Of a stretch of DNA of 64,000 bases, positions 10,566-29,142 are shown piece by piece. How positions within the stretch are numbered: the stretch's first letter is position 1; the number at the start of each line of letters is the position of its first letter. The DNA lies in NCBI RefSeq assembly GCF_019720895.1, contig NZ_JAHKSH010000003.1:594148-658147 (forward strand). Direction: 5' to 3'. This DNA comes from Microbacterium salitolerans (lineage in GTDB: Bacteria > Actinomycetota > Actinomycetes > Actinomycetales > Microbacteriaceae). The translations under genes and the position numbers were made by a program. The notes below the pieces were generated by a model. The model was given only the letters and a program-made list of their open reading frames with translations. It ran no database searches and was not told the origin of the DNA.

Positions 10566-12197
10566 ATGGCGACCGATCACCACAGCATCCCCCAGCCCGA
10601 GGGCTGGACCTGGCGCGACCGCGCACGCGGCACGATCCCCGTCGGCCGCGTGCTCGACCCGATCGAAGACGCGTCGCCCGGTGACAACGTCTTCCCGACC
10701 GTGTACGTCCCCGATCGTCTGCTCGTGAGCCGTCGGAACGAGAAGACCACGGCCGACGACGACCTCGATGTCCTGCGCGAGGCGGCAGAGAGCTTCGGGT
10801 GGACGATCGTGCCCGAGACGCTCGCGGGTGAGCGCCTCGCGGAGGGCGAAGAGCCGGATCCGCTCGTCGAGGGAATCCCCGGCGTCCTGCGTGCCCGACT
10901 CACGACGCCCGACGAGCGCGTACGCGGCGAGTCGCCGGTCGCCGCCGACGCGTGGCGCGTGCTGCAGAAGGCGCGTCAGCTCGCCAAGGATCCGCTGGCC
11001 GATGTTGGGCTGGATCACGTGCTGGCCGTCGACCCGATCGGCGTCAATCCGTTCACGCGGACGAACCCGTTCACCAGGACCAACCCGTTCACGCGCACCA
11101 ATCCCTTCACGCGCACCAACCCGTTCGGAACCGAGCAGTACGCGGAAGCGGGGCTCGGCGGACGGCAGCCGATCGCGCGCCTCGGGGCGGGGCCGGTCCG
11201 GAGCGCGAATCCGCGCAAGAGCGAACGCCGTGCCGTCGTTGCGTATCTCGACACCGGGTGCGGCGAGCACACGTGGCTCCCGGACAGCATCGTCACGCGC
11301 CAGCTCGAGATCGACGGGCGTCCGATCGGTTTGACCGACGATGCGGATCCTGAGCGCTATCCGGATCTGTACGGCCCGCTCGACGGCGAGATCGACGCGG
11401 TGTCGGGGCACGGCACGTTCATCGCCGGAGTCCTCCGGCAGCTCGCGCCCGACGCCGACATCGTCTCGGTGCGCGTCGCCGACGCTCGCGGCATCGTCTC
11501 CGAGAGCGCACTGCTCGCGTCGCTCGGCGACGTGGTCGAGCTCATGGTGCGTGCGGCCGCGGGGAAGGCCGACGGCCAGCCGATCGACGTGCTGAACCTG
11601 TCGCTCGGCTACTACCACGAGACGCCGGAGGACGGATTCTTCACGACCGTGCTCTTCGAGCTCCTGCGTGCCGCACGTGGGCTGGGCTGCGCTGTCGTGT
11701 GCTCGGTCGGCAACGACACGACCGATCGGCCGACGTTCCCCGCGTCTCTCTGGCCGTGGGACGGAGCGCACAACGGCATCGAGGGCGACGACGCCGCGCC
11801 GCACGTCTCGATCGGGGCGCTGAACCCGGCGTGCTCGTCGCTCGCGCTGTTCTCGAACATCGGCCCGTGGGTGCAGGCGTACGCGCCCGGAGCGTCCGTC
11901 GTCAGCACCATGCCCGCTTTCGACGGCGGGCGGCAGGCCTCGTCGCGCGACGACCAGTACGACCACCGTCGCGAGACGATCGCGCCCGACGCGTACGTGG
12001 GCGGATTCGCCGCCTGGAGCGGCACGTCGTTCGCGGCCCCGTACGCGGCGGGGCTGATCGCGGCGAACCTCGGCATGGTCCCTGCTCGCCCGCGATCCCG
12101 TCGTGCGGCCTGCGAGCGGGTCACGCGAGCCGCCGGTGCCGCGATCGATGCGCTGCACGCCATCGATCATTCGCCGACGGCAGCTCCCGGCTCATGA
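10566..12197 (+). CDS. Subtilisin-family (S8) serine protease, cytoplasmic type, with NPFTRT repeats
   Basis: 543 residues. Catalytic triad: D229 in VAYLDTGCG, H282 in SGHGTFIAG and S488 in SGTSFAAP; oxyanion-hole N383 in SVGND. The N-terminal 220 residues are not a signal peptide; no hydrophobic leader is visible, so the enzyme should act inside the cell. Just before the catalytic domain, residues 161-187 contain four NPFTRT repeats and a final NPF, perhaps a docking or autocleavage segment. ATG 10566 follows GGGGAG. The stop overlaps the start of the CHAT gene (ATGA). The partner is a caspase-like CHAT protein, which suggests a proteolytic cascade (inference). Confidence 0.92.
   Translation: MATDHHSIPQPEGWTWRDRARGTIPVGRVLDPIEDASPGDNVFPTVYVPDRLLVSRRNEKTTADDDLDVLREAAESFGWTIVPETLAGERLAEGEEPDPLVEGIPGVLRARLTTPDERVRGESPVAADAWRVLQKARQLAKDPLADVGLDHVLAVDPIGVNPFTRTNPFTRTNPFTRTNPFTRTNPFGTEQYAEAGLGGRQPIARLGAGPVRSANPRKSERRAVVAYLDTGCGEHTWLPDSIVTRQLEIDGRPIGLTDDADPERYPDLYGPLDGEIDAVSGHGTFIAGVLRQLAPDADIVSVRVADARGIVSESALLASLGDVVELMVRAAAGKADGQPIDVLNLSLGYYHETPEDGFFTTVLFELLRAARGLGCAVVCSVGNDTTDRPTFPASLWPWDGAHNGIEGDDAAPHVSIGALNPACSSLALFSNIGPWVQAYAPGASVVSTMPAFDGGRQASSRDDQYDHRRETIAPDAYVGGFAAWSGTSFAAPYAAGLIAANLGMVPARPRSRRAACERVTRAAGAAIDALHAIDHSPTAAPGS
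11046..11126 (+). repeat. 18-bp repeats encoding NPFTRT
   Basis: Four 18-bp units (11046-11117) and a partial fifth (NPF). DNA copies differ at synonymous positions while the peptide is exactly kept, which suggests selection on the peptide. NPF is a short motif known in other systems as a protein-docking signal; its role here is unknown. Confidence 0.9.
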
Positions 12198-14680
12198 AGC
12201 TCACCGCGGAAGAGCTCCATCAGCGGGCCATCGACGACGTCAACGGCCGCCGTCTCAGCGCGGGGGAGCACAATCTCGACAGGGCCGAGGCGCGCGCGCA
12301 GACGAACGACGTCCGCGCGCGGATCGCGGCGACTCGGTCGTACGCGCTCTCGCTCCGAGGCGCGCACGCCGAGGCCGAGCGCGCGAGCCGCGCAGCTCTG
12401 CGCCTGCGCGATCTCGGAGAGCAGACGCGCGCGATCCTCCACGGTGAGCTGGGAGCTGTCCTCCTCACGGCGGGACGCTGGAAGGCCGCGATCTCGTCGC
12501 TCGACATCGCGCTCGCGATGCTCGACGATTCTCCGCAGGAGCGCGCGAACCTCCTCATGAATCGGGCCACGGCGAACATGGATCTCGGCGCACTCGACGA
12601 CGCGATGCGCGACTGCGCGGAGGCGGTGGCGACGTTCACGGCCGACGGTGACACCATCGGCGCCGCCCAGGCGCGCCACAACCTCGGGTACGTGGCCATG
12701 CTGCGGGGCGACCTGGCCCTCGCCCTGCGGGAGATGTCGGCGGTGCGCGACGAGCTCGAACGGGAGTCGCCCGCTCTCGCGGCGATCGCGGGTCTCGACC
12801 GCGCGGAGGTGCTGCGGGAGGCCGGTCAGCTGCGCGAGGCGGAAGCGCTCTTCGAGCGCGTCGCCCGCACCTTCGGCGCGCAGCGCATGCGTCAGTCCCG
12901 CGCCGAGGCCGAGTTCCGGCTCGCGCAGACGCTGCTCGCCCACGACCCCGGCCGCGCGGCGGGCGTGGCGAAGCTCGCGGCGAAGCGGTTCCGTGCACAG
13001 GGCAGCACGCCGTGGGCCCTGCGGGCGGATGGAGTGCGCCTGCGCGCCCTGCTTGCGCCCTCGCGCCGCCGGTTCGCCCAGACGGTCTCCGACGAGGTGC
13101 GCGCGAGCTGCGTGACGACGGCCCGTGCGCTCCTGCGCCTCGGATTCCGCAGCGAGTCGCGCGCGTTGCGGTTCGCGCGCGACGCCGCCCTTGCGCGCGC
13201 GGGTTCGCCGCCGCGCGTCACCCCACGCGCAGACGACACGGCCCCGCTGAACGTGCGCCTGCTCGCGTTCGAGGCGCAGGCGGCGCAGGCCGCGGCACGC
13301 GGCGACGACGCGGGTGCGCGGCGCGCCGCATACGAGGGCATCGCGCAGCTGGCGGGCTGGCAGCGCACGTTCGGCTCAATCGAGATGCTGTCCTCCGCCG
13401 CGATGCACGGCACCGGTGTCTTCCTCGAGGGCATCGACGCCGCGGTGCGCTCGGGGGATCCGGAGATCGTGTTCGAATGGTCGGAGATCACGCGGCATTT
13501 CAGCCAACAGGTCACTCCCGTGCGTCCTCCGCGAGACGACGAGCACGCCGCCGATCTCAGCCGGCTGCGGTCGCTGCGCGCCGAGCTGGATGACGCCGCA
13601 TGGGACACGGATCCGCGCGTCATCGGCCTGCGCCAGCGCGTCAGCGAGCGACGGTGGATGGATACCCAGGGCCAGGAAGGGCCGGCGCACGTCACCCTCG
13701 GCGCGCTGCGAGCCGCGCTCGACGAGGAGACGGCGCTGATGTCGTTCGTCTATGTGCGAGAACGACTCCTCTGCCTCGTCGTGCCGCACACCGCGCCCCC
13801 GAGGATCGTCGATCTGTCGTGGCGTCGGGTCCGGGCTCTGCGCGATGGTCTCTTCCCCGACCTGAATGCGGCGGCCGAGACGCACGGGACGCCGACGGGG
13901 GCGCTCGTGCGCGACGCGCTGGACGTACGTCTCGCCGACCTGTCCGACGCCCTGCTCGTCGATGCGCTCCGTGTCGCCGGCGACCCGCGGCGCGTGATCA
14001 TCACGGCGCCGGGGGAGCTGCAGGGCACGCCGTGGAGCATTCTCCCGGCGATGCGGGGTCGGGTCATGACGCTGAGCAGATCGGCGTCGAGGTGGGTCAA
14101 CACCTGTCGCGCCGCCCGTCCGATCGAGCGGGTCGGCTTCGCCGTCGGCCCTGACGTGCCGCGCGGAGGAGAGGAGGCGCGTGATGCCGCGGACATCTGG
14201 CGGCGGGCGCTTCCGCATCACGATGCTGCTCGGGTGCTCGACGGCGCCACGGCGACGGTCGACGCCGTCTCGCGTCTCGCGCGCGACGTCGATGTCCTGC
14301 ACATCGTCGCGCACGGTCACCACTCGATCGACTCGCCGATGCTGTCCGCGTGCGCCCTCGCGGACGGCTCGCTGTTCGGCTACGACGTCGACGAGATCCC
14401 CTCACCGCCGGAGATCGTGCTGCTCTCCGCCTGCGAGCTCGGTCGATCGAGCGTGCAGTGGGGGGAGGAGGCGGTCGGCATGACGCGCGCGTGGCTGCAT
14501 TCGGGAGTGCGCACCGTCATCGCGTCGCCGGTCGTCGTCGCGGACGACGTCGCCTGCGATCTGCTCTGCGCGCTGCACGAGCACCTGGCGGACGGGGCCG
14601 GGCCGGCGGAAGCGCTCGCGCTCGCCGCGGAGGAGACGGGGCACCTCGCGCCCTTCCTCTGCTACGGCTCCGGCTTCTGA
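12194..14680 (+). CDS. TPR-CHAT protein (caspase-like protease)
   Basis: 828 residues. Residues about 10-330 are all-helical with TPR-like repeats (EAERASRAALRL, DLGALDDAMRDCAEAV, GQLREAEALFERVA). The C-terminal CHAT domain (about 500-828) has the catalytic pair: H707 in HIVAHGHH and C747 in LLSACELG, both intact, and ends in the expected AWLHSGVRTVIAS strand-helix. CHAT proteases are clan CD caspase relatives often released by a partner sensed through the TPRs. The ATG overlaps the S8 protease stop by 4 bp. No signal or membrane segment. The S8 enzyme, the small acidic protein or the sigma factor across the junction are possible substrates (inference). Confidence 0.92.
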   Translation: MKLTAEELHQRAIDDVNGRRLSAGEHNLDRAEARAQTNDVRARIAATRSYALSLRGAHAEAERASRAALRLRDLGEQTRAILHGELGAVLLTAGRWKAAISSLDIALAMLDDSPQERANLLMNRATANMDLGALDDAMRDCAEAVATFTADGDTIGAAQARHNLGYVAMLRGDLALALREMSAVRDELERESPALAAIAGLDRAEVLREAGQLREAEALFERVARTFGAQRMRQSRAEAEFRLAQTLLAHDPGRAAGVAKLAAKRFRAQGSTPWALRADGVRLRALLAPSRRRFAQTVSDEVRASCVTTARALLRLGFRSESRALRFARDAALARAGSPPRVTPRADDTAPLNVRLLAFEAQAAQAAARGDDAGARRAAYEGIAQLAGWQRTFGSIEMLSSAAMHGTGVFLEGIDAAVRSGDPEIVFEWSEITRHFSQQVTPVRPPRDDEHAADLSRLRSLRAELDDAAWDTDPRVIGLRQRVSERRWMDTQGQEGPAHVTLGALRAALDEETALMSFVYVRERLLCLVVPHTAPPRIVDLSWRRVRALRDGLFPDLNAAAETHGTPTGALVRDALDVRLADLSDALLVDALRVAGDPRRVIITAPGELQGTPWSILPAMRGRVMTLSRSASRWVNTCRAARPIERVGFAVGPDVPRGGEEARDAADIWRRALPHHDAARVLDGATATVDAVSRLARDVDVLHIVAHGHHSIDSPMLSACALADGSLFGYDVDEIPSPPEIVLLSACELGRSSVQWGEEAVGMTRAWLHSGVRTVIASPVVVADDVACDLLCALHEHLADGAGPAEALALAAEETGHLAPFLCYGSGF

Positions 14681-14708
14681 GAATCGTTCCCCGCGTGAGT
14701 GTGCCTCT

Positions 14709-15179
14709 TCACACCTCGAACCACTGTGTCATGACCTCACGCAGGTTCTCGTCCTGCTTGACGACCATGCGCATGTGAGACGGCCCCGGTGGGACCTCGT
14801 CGAACGTGAAGCGCCCGTCGCCCGCAGTATCGGCCTTCCTCTCCACCTCCGGCTGGGCCAGTCGCGCGGCGAGAACCGCGGGCCTCGACCAGCCGTCGAC
14901 CCGGCGCGTTCCGTTCCTCTCGGCCGAGACTCGGATGAGCACCTCCGCATCGTCGTCCGCGAAGTGCACCGTGCGCGGGGCGCTCCCTCGGCGCACGGAT
15001 CCGGTCTTGTCGCCTTCAACGATCGTGAGGAGTTCGAACTCCCGGTTGAGGTCATCGACCGCTGCGGCCGCGACCATGCGATCGGCGAGGCCGCTGGGAG
15101 CCGGATCTTCGGCGTCCCAGACCATGCGCAGTTCGCCGAGGAGCTCCTCGTCTTCCTTCGGCTCATCGATGTCAGGCAT
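14709..15179 (-). CDS. Small acidic protein coupled to the sigma factor, possible regulator
   Basis: 156 residues. ATG 15179 has a strong GAGGAGG site inside the 3' end of the sigma gene and overlaps it by 8 bp. The N-terminus (10-40) is an acidic helix pattern, ELLGELRMVWDAEDPAPSG then LADRMVAA. Residues 45-156 look like a beta-sandwich with the GRFTFDEVPPGP turn seen in carboxypeptidase-regulatory-like domains. Coupling to the sigma gene suggests an anti-sigma or adaptor role, but no zinc-binding anti-sigma motif and no membrane helix are seen. It could equally be a protease substrate. Convergent with the CHAT gene, 28 bp apart. Confidence 0.8.
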   Translation of the reverse strand: MPDIDEPKEDEELLGELRMVWDAEDPAPSGLADRMVAAAAVDDLNREFELLTIVEGDKTGSVRRGSAPRTVHFADDDAEVLIRVSAERNGTRRVDGWSRPAVLAARLAQPEVERKADTAGDGRFTFDEVPPGPSHMRMVVKQDENLREVMTQWFEV

Positions 15180-15861
15180 TGTCTCCTCCTCTTCGCACAT
15201 CATTCATTCCAGCATCCAGGAAATTCCGCAGCTTCGCCAGACACCTGCTGCGTGTGGGTCCGATGCTTCCGACGGGCATGTGCAGCGCCTTCGAGATCTC
15301 CGCGTAGTCCGGCCGCTCGTCGAATGCGATGATGCGCAGCAGTCGCTGGCAACGGGGATCGAGCCGTGCGACGGCGTTCCACAGATGTTGCCGCTCGTCG
15401 GACTCGGACACGTCGTGGTCGACTCCACGCCGCGCGGGCGCGAGGCGCTCGAGGCGCTCGTCCTCGGTGTCGTCGTCGCGCCCGTCGCGCTTCGAGGCGC
15501 GCCAGGCTTCGCGGCGGGCCGTGATCGTCAGCCACGCGGACACCGCCTGCGGCTCATCGATCGATTCATGCTTGCGCACGAGCGTGAGCCATGTCGTCTG
15601 AATCACGTCCTCCGCCACGGACGTGCGCAGTCCATAGGCGCGGACGACGTGCCACAGCACCGGCGTCATGAGTCGCACCAGATCGTCGATGGCCCGCGGA
15701 TCCCCGCCGCGCCAGCGCACGAAGAGAGCCGCGGCCCTGGCCCAGCGCTCGCCCGAGCGCCCGAGCGCGTCGGCAGTCCCGTCCGCAGCACGCTCGGGAG
15801 GCGAGGCGGAAGAATCGGCGGGCTGGCCGCCAGAAGGTGCCGATCGGGAATCGTCCTCCAT
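15172..15861 (-). CDS. ECF-type sigma-70 family RNA polymerase sigma factor
   Basis: 229 residues. Region 2 at about 42-124 (DLVRLMTPVLWHVVRAYGL, AEDVIQTTWLTLV, then AWLTITARREAW); region 4 at about 160-216 with the HTH PDYAEISKALHMPVGSIGPT followed by RSRCLAKL. Regions 1 and 3 are absent, as in ECF factors. ATG 15861 chosen because the frame upstream has no sigma similarity; the ribosome site is weak. The stop lies inside the next gene. Likely switches on its own operon and perhaps the S8-CHAT operon (inference). Upstream, 15862-15970 holds no gene. Confidence 0.92.
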   Translation of the reverse strand: MEDDSRSAPSGGQPADSSASPPERAADGTADALGRSGERWARAAALFVRWRGGDPRAIDDLVRLMTPVLWHVVRAYGLRTSVAEDVIQTTWLTLVRKHESIDEPQAVSAWLTITARREAWRASKRDGRDDDTEDERLERLAPARRGVDHDVSESDERQHLWNAVARLDPRCQRLLRIIAFDERPDYAEISKALHMPVGSIGPTRSRCLAKLRNFLDAGMNDVRRGGDNA

Positions 15862-15970
15862 ATTGTTCTCATTGTGCCCATACCAGTGAAGAGCGGCGCA
15901 ACCCCCTGGTGATACGGCGTTCAGACGACATCGAGCATTCGTCGAGGTGAACTCCAGCGGAACCGTTCGG

Positions 15971-29040: not shown

Positions 29041-29046
29041 TGTCAA
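29041..29046 (-). promoter_or_regulatory. Possible -35 (TTGACA) for the exopolysaccharide operon
   Basis: TTGACA on the - strand, 86 bp before the sugar transferase start. No good -10 follows at 17 bp, so this is tentative. The stretch 28956-29202 holds only promoter-type sequence. Confidence 0.25.
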
Positions 29047-29142
29047 GAGCGCGCGCGGACGCCCCTGATACATCGAGAGGGGAACTTCTTCTGGGGGTAC
29101 CCGGGCAGAGGCGCGACACGGGCGATCCATAGCCCGCACCGG

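Follow-up and report, generated by a model that had tools for sequence, protein, structure and literature searches.

A tandem peptide array in the linker of a subtilase as a probable docking ligand of the TPR-CHAT protease in an ECF-type sigma factor locus

What brings a caspase-like protease to its partners in a locus that also encodes a sigma factor? In ECF54-type loci and in Craspase, a caspase-like TPR-CHAT protease is paired with a sigma factor, and a locus of this kind, with four genes, lies in the window, i.e. the whole stretch of 64,000 nucleotides from Microbacterium salitolerans that was analysed here (Table 1). An earlier note, made from the sequence alone, had described a subtilase of the S8 family, a TPR-CHAT protein, a sigma factor and a small acidic protein; their positions and catalytic residues are confirmed by the open reading frames, by Pfam and by conservation across 126 distinct systems. 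The S8 protein matches Peptidase_S8 (PF00082, E 1.1e-19) and carries the D229/H282/S488 triad of a peptidase S8, the residues being kept in every one of the 126 systems that has a letter at the site (126 for Asp229, 126 for His282 and 125 for Ser488). Its lack of a signal peptide, also claimed before, agrees with our own reading, which was of the N terminus only. The TPR-CHAT protein matches CHAT (PF12770, E 1.3e-23) and has the H707/C747 dyad of a CHAT protease, again kept in every system with a letter there (122 for His707 and 122 for Cys747), and every Pfam TPR match to it is below the cut-off. Genome-wide, the CHAT family has one match and Peptidase_S8 three. The sigma factor consists of regions 2 and 4 only, as expected for an ECF protein, with a match to Sigma70_r2 (E 1.6e-9), a Sigma70_r4_2 match below the cut-off and 64.8 bits for TIGR02937 (sigma70-ECF) against a cut-off of 42.9. 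For the small protein, Pfam gives only CarboxypepD_reg, below the cut-off (0.026); searches of Pfam, NCBIfam and PADLOC with E up to 1 matched no anti-sigma family and no relative of solved structure has an E below 0.66, i.e. neither a recognisable anti-sigma domain nor a solved relative was found in these searches. The start of the TPR-CHAT gene overlaps the S8 stop by 4 nt, the sigma and small-protein genes overlap as well, and 28 nt separate the TPR-CHAT stop from the small-protein stop.

Table 1. Features of the locus, in window positions unless a locus of a relative is named
Feature	Position	Strand	Basis or remark
S8 (subtilase) protease, 543 aa	10566-12197	+	ORF; Pfam Peptidase_S8; conserved triad
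S8 N-terminal domain, residues 45-154	10698-11027	+	AlphaFold2 model: predicted strand-helix-strand-strand-helix-strand
NPFTRT x4 array, S8 residues 161-184	11046-11117	+	predicted disordered; proposed docking ligand of TPR-CHAT
S8 catalytic domain, residues 223-500	11232-12065	+	Pfam PF00082
TPR-CHAT caspase-like protease, 828 aa	12194-14680	+	ORF; Pfam; AlphaFold2 model
Helical TPR region, about residues 5-490	12206-13663	+	below-cut-off TPR matches; AlphaFold2 helices
Codon of TPR residue 126 (Thr in the window)	12569-12571	+	weaker covariation with unit residue 4, not significant family-wise
Codon of TPR residue 199 (Ala in the window)	12788-12790	+	covaries with array unit residue 3
CHAT domain, residues 595-811	13976-14626	+	Pfam PF12770
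Small acidic protein, 156 aa	14709-15179	-	putative anti-sigma factor (inferred); longer start at 15203 possible
ECF-type sigma factor, 229 aa	15172-15861	-	Pfam Sigma70_r2; TIGR02937
CGTATCA-N15-GCTCTT promoter-like site upstream of sigma	15889-15916	-	motif match
Candidate small RNA stretch, examples	L105:6333-6530, L117:6364-6560, L124:7826-8020		after the TPR-CHAT stop

A scan of a contig collection for TPR-CHAT gave 37 loci, mostly from Microbacterium. Sigma and small-protein genes are present in 34 of them and all 34 are co-directional, with sigma, small protein, S8 and TPR-CHAT following each other on one strand; the remaining three (L025, L026 and L038) are short contigs. The small protein was detected at E<=1e-15 in 137 of the 247 genomes of the genus, and the loci fetched from 120 of these 137, some of whose genomes are also in the 37-locus set, display exactly this order in 104 cases and an inverted one in none, with the small-protein gene directly adjoining sigma and often overlapping it. 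The other 16 include four with the order sigma, small protein, CHAT, S8, three with S8 absent from the stretch, one with CHAT absent, and for the rest loci with extra copies or, in one case, with the small protein first. Further away, in a phylum sample of 396 genomes, the small protein occurs in 21 (E<=0.001) and TPR-CHAT in 42 (E<=1e-20); around the 23 long TPR-CHAT places with available surroundings (24 at E<=1e-50), S8 was found in 20, sigma in 17 and the small protein in 15, in gene orders and on strands that vary. Judged by gene content and order, the genes for the sigma factor, the small protein, S8 and TPR-CHAT form a single conserved module. The neighbourhood search proposed in the earlier note therefore finds the sigma gene together with CHAT and S8, and the four genes are co-conserved instead of occurring apart, the outcome that was to speak against a linked island. 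The tail-to-tail layout on which that note remarked is present in the window but is unusual, and since the relatives share one co-directional order it is best seen as a local rearrangement. In two loci, L065 and L068, modules stand in tandem, with a pair each of S8 and TPR-CHAT genes and two or three genes for the small protein, and the two S8 proteins of one locus differ there in the unit of the linker array described below (PFTSGG versus HPLYDG or HPMYDG).

The array itself is a new element that the earlier note missed. In the window, four tandem copies of NPFTRT occupy the linker that joins the N-terminal domain of S8 to its catalytic domain, and a degenerate pattern for this peptide matched only the four array copies in the genome. 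In order to follow the linker across relatives, the window, the 37 and the 120 loci (158 in total) were reduced to the 151 with all four genes and, upon removal of identical S8 proteins, to 126 distinct systems, none of which was dropped for missing an array. All 126 have at least three units, the arrays running to 3-9 units of 5-8 residues, and they display 40 unit sequences with 51 parsimony changes of unit. Tandem identical units, a varying copy number and a unit that differs between species could point to a neutral minisatellite linker homogenised by DNA slippage, but this explanation was rejected as extremely improbable: all units are identical in protein in 111/126 systems, yet all are identical in DNA in 0/126. 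Between units pS is 0.476 while pN is 0.0137 (pN/pS 0.029), pN being somewhat lowered because the array ends were set by maximal self-similarity, and codon agreement, at 0.633, only slightly exceeds the 0.566 that codon usage would predict. Where the units differ within a close pair of systems, codon agreement is 0.857 at the same index (105 comparisons) versus 0.648 at different indices (210), a figure drawn from only 7 overlapping pairs, as if each unit had been changed in place. The codon data thus indicate that selection acting on the protein, rather than recent copying of DNA, keeps the units identical, and the array is a clear example of peptide repeats that stay the same in protein while the DNA drifts.

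Among the genus loci, 118 of 121 S8 reading frames contain the array and the three exceptions are fragments of 114, 154 and 178 aa; none was seen either in L025, a contig fragment. In the phylum loci it is present in 13 of 29 S8 proteins, from five families, and 16 of the 29 are without it, so that docking cannot depend on an array everywhere. The units of distant members are HPLYDG, HPMYDG, PFTSGG, GYGDGV, HPFWGG, HPFWVG, NPAYQG, NPAYQA, NPGYQG and TPYPGG. The longest array seen, of about 12 TPYPGG copies, belongs to the S8 protein at 6561-7529 of L092, and in four loci (L190, L195, L034 and L031) two unit types are arranged in blocks, as if caught between two units.

The third residue of the unit tracks residue 199 of TPR-CHAT, Tyr going with Gly, His with Asn, Phe with Ser or Cys and Val with Ile. 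Tyr units meet Gly199 in 23/24 systems, His units meet Asn199 in 11/11, Phe units meet Ser or Cys in 78 of the 87 having a letter there, and one Val unit is found with Ile. Along the tree, 16 changes of unit residue 3 and 28 changes of TPR199 fall together on 12 shared branches where 3.0 would be expected (z 5.60; family-wise P 0.0107 across 1299 columns). When CHAT is left out of the tree P is 0.0115, and when the tree is built from CHAT only it is 0.0285. With a tree built from sigma and the small protein, TPR199 is outside the top four columns and the top list is led by S8 columns; we suspect this short alignment to differ in its history from the S8-CHAT half. Simulation places TPR199 first of 1253 columns for unit residue 3 (z 8.98 versus 4.24 for the next), and the observed information between the two residues was reached in 0/5000 simulations. 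Of 14 independent pairs, 13 show a joint change, as against 7 of 50 controls (Fisher 7e-8), and 12 of the 14 obey the rule.

The rule is broken by 5 of the 123 systems with a letter at TPR199, namely L137, L146 and L151 (Phe with Asn), L169 (Tyr with Ser, in an array of mixed units) and L194 (Phe with Gly). In distant members a small unit residue meets a large residue 199 (Ala with Leu in L074 and L081, Gly with Ile in L079), L092 goes against the rule with a Tyr unit and Ile, and the Spearman coefficient of -0.75 over ten hand-entered pairs is only illustrative, because L092 and L067 (whose unit has no proline) were left out and one genus point was included. Because unit residue 3 covaries with TPR199, the array is very probably the docking ligand of TPR-CHAT. 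The earlier idea that the TPR part senses a signal is retained insofar as this part apparently reads a ligand, which by covariation would be the linker array of the S8 partner and not an outside signal. The proposed contact between unit residue 3 and TPR199 makes the recruitment question testable with short peptides, the species providing natural matched and mismatched pairs and, if binding is confirmed, the unit-TPR pairs might be used to recruit proteases, as tags in laboratory tools.

The AlphaFold2 model of TPR-CHAT has a mean pLDDT of 86.6 and places residues 126, 163 and 199 in predicted helices 114-130, 154-170 and 193-209, respectively, with residues 126 and 199 two repeats apart; of the 123 systems that have a letter at residue 163, 122 keep the Asn. 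Residue 126 is first by simulation for unit residue 4 (z 5.49), Gly being found with Leu in 31/31 and Ser with Ile or Met in 17/18; this pair failed the family-wise co-change test (P 0.764 and 0.3075) and is kept as a lead. When the TPR-CHAT profile was compared to PDB sequences, the best 60 of 77 matches were mainly TPR and designed helical proteins, and Csx29 was absent among these 60. The S8 model has a mean pLDDT of 75.2, with residues 162-204, array included, below 50, and its N-terminal domain has the order of secondary structure elements familiar from subtilisin propeptides, hence propeptide-like.

Changes of the whole unit, rather than of its third residue, show the largest co-change excess in the S8 catalytic domain (z 3.31), with the TPR region second (2.49) and a deficit in the CHAT domain (-3.06). 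The top column is S8 residue 449 (window 11910-11912; z 4.13, family-wise P 0.0385), which is presumably near the active-site cleft, going by alignment to subtilisin. This co-change of the S8 domain and of residue 449 raises the possibility that the S8 enzyme may also act on its own array. In its strict form, the array would be a processing or pseudo-substrate segment of S8 itself, its X-Pro-Phe/Tyr motifs being cut in the S8 active site and the catalytic domain thereby freed, and Pro-Phe is indeed a good P2-P1 pair for subtilisin. We find this reading unlikely, as the top column for unit residue 3 is TPR199 and not a residue of S8, and a TPR residue that follows the unit would be left unexplained. 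Self-processing by S8 and docking of TPR-CHAT can nevertheless hold together.

A TPR partner with lineage-specific units of 5-8 residues would equally suit a signal released by proteolysis of the array, short peptides being freed to bind the TPR domain as in RRNPP regulators, and the covariation at TPR199 is compatible with units of either kind, free or tethered. Inspection by eye revealed no export signal, however, and the retention of at least three units in 126/126 arrays suits tethered avidity at least as well, which makes a released peptide quite improbable when compared to docking on the intact array.

Upstream of sigma, [TC]GTATCA was found in 115 of 126 stretches and TGTATC[AT], whose background is 0.025 per 300 bp, in 109 of 126; the window has CGTATCA at 15916 on the minus strand and no plus-strand copy before S8. 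A first-guess -35/-10 pair (GTTGAA with GTATC) matched 0/121 upstream stretches and was abandoned. GTATCA-N15-17-GCTCTT has two matches in the genome, one before sigma and the other at 29046-29072 (minus strand) of the window, which is not significant because a reversed control also gave one match, so that one is expected by chance; it lies about 90 nt before an open reading frame whose product looks, by eye, like a sugar transferase. In relatives, the motif is found again 3' of the TPR-CHAT stop, within the first 600 nt in 129/152 loci and within the first 420 nt in 97/120, two sets that share genomes, and the next gene after TPR-CHAT is S8 in 6 of the 152 (the motif being present in 5 of these). 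In the other loci that were read, the motif precedes a non-coding stretch that has G-rich loops and ends in a conserved hairpin, 8 of whose 10 pairs have changes on both sides in 38 sequences chosen from 84 non-redundant ones (of 96). The stretch had no Rfam match in six loci, and we propose it as a candidate sigma-dependent small RNA. In the window its place is occupied by the sigma and small-protein genes.

Altogether, we consider it rather likely that docking of TPR-CHAT on the S8 array and control of the sigma factor act together. The system would then be a cytoplasmic sigma switch under protease control and of the ECF54 neighbourhood type, with the array as a multivalent ligand that lets one S8 assemble several TPR-CHAT molecules or retain a single one through avidity. 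Docking would put CHAT beside the S8 linker and the propeptide-like domain, where one protease could activate the other; the active protease or proteases would destroy the small protein, the presumed holder of sigma, and the freed sigma factor would transcribe its own operon from TGTATCA-N15-GCTC promoters and, in relatives, the small RNA gene as well. Within this scheme, the sequence of proteolytic steps and the view of the small protein as an anti-sigma factor are tentative, and both, like the effect of docking, are drawn by analogy with Craspase.

The array may also be an apoptosome-like scaffold, a speculative extension that we hold for somewhat less probable than not, in which identical peptides gather the caspase-like TPR-CHAT for activation by proximity and each lineage has its own peptide-TPR key; all array copies and the TPR pocket would then change in concert within each lineage. 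If this were true, a bacterial protease-recruitment code would be readable from sequence and would feed a sigma factor and a small RNA. For the sigma factor there is a published alternative, stated for ECF54 in the accessible part of PMC8999054, by which the system works without an anti-sigma factor and the proteases keep it off by degrading sigma. We consider this doubtful for the present module, in which the small-protein gene lies directly next to sigma, as that of a sigma partner would; the proposal for ECF54 is drawn purely from gene context, like the anti-sigma reading here.

The role in conflict or cell death that the earlier note had suggested did not find support, the PADLOC, plasmid and phage comparisons having yielded nothing for it. 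The PADLOC-DB models, which describe known anti-phage defence systems, matched neither CHAT nor sigma nor the small protein, and for S8 the matches were weak and generic (subtilase 5e-5, IetS 0.0013). A mobile origin was rejected as well: two records for the CHAT protein in the plasmid collection and three for the S8 protein in the phage collection include none covering 80%. The main text of a survey of conflict systems, in its accessible part, mentions subtilisin once and CHAT not at all (PMC7159879).

A TPR domain that reads a short, lineage-specific peptide is known from RRNPP receptors; unlike these, the peptide copies sit here in a protease linker and the receptor has a protease domain instead of a DNA-binding one. 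Our literature search, which covered titles and abstract openings and left most subscription papers outside, returned no S8 array or TPR-array code and no account of what, outside CRISPR, brings a TPR-CHAT protease of such loci to its partners. The four-gene neighbourhood as such is already known, since the accessible part of PMC8999054 describes ECF54 sigma factors with carboxypeptidase, subtilase and CHAT proteins in their context, perhaps controlled by proteolysis without an anti-sigma factor. The present module resembles it in having an ECF sigma factor with a subtilase and a CHAT protein, both clear, and a carboxypeptidase-like protein nearby, the latter likeness being the match of the small protein below the cut-off (0.026). 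In contrast, the array, the TPR recognition code and the small RNA are not mentioned in that part of the account (PMC8999054), which also assumes the absence of an anti-sigma factor where a putative one is proposed here. In Craspase, the type III-E CRISPR system, the TPR-CHAT protease Csx29 cuts Csx30, an inhibitor of CASP-sigma (PMC10028731, accessible part), and TPR-CHAT binds gRAMP mainly via a loop (PMC9729208, accessible part). The likeness to our locus lies in a TPR-CHAT protease combined with the removal of an ECF sigma inhibitor by proteolysis, described for Craspase in the accessible text of PMC10028731 and proposed here by analogy. Unlike in Craspase, the proposed docking partner is an S8 protease with a peptide array and not the RNA-guided gRAMP/Cas7-11, and the small protein has 156 aa, whereas Csx30 has 565.
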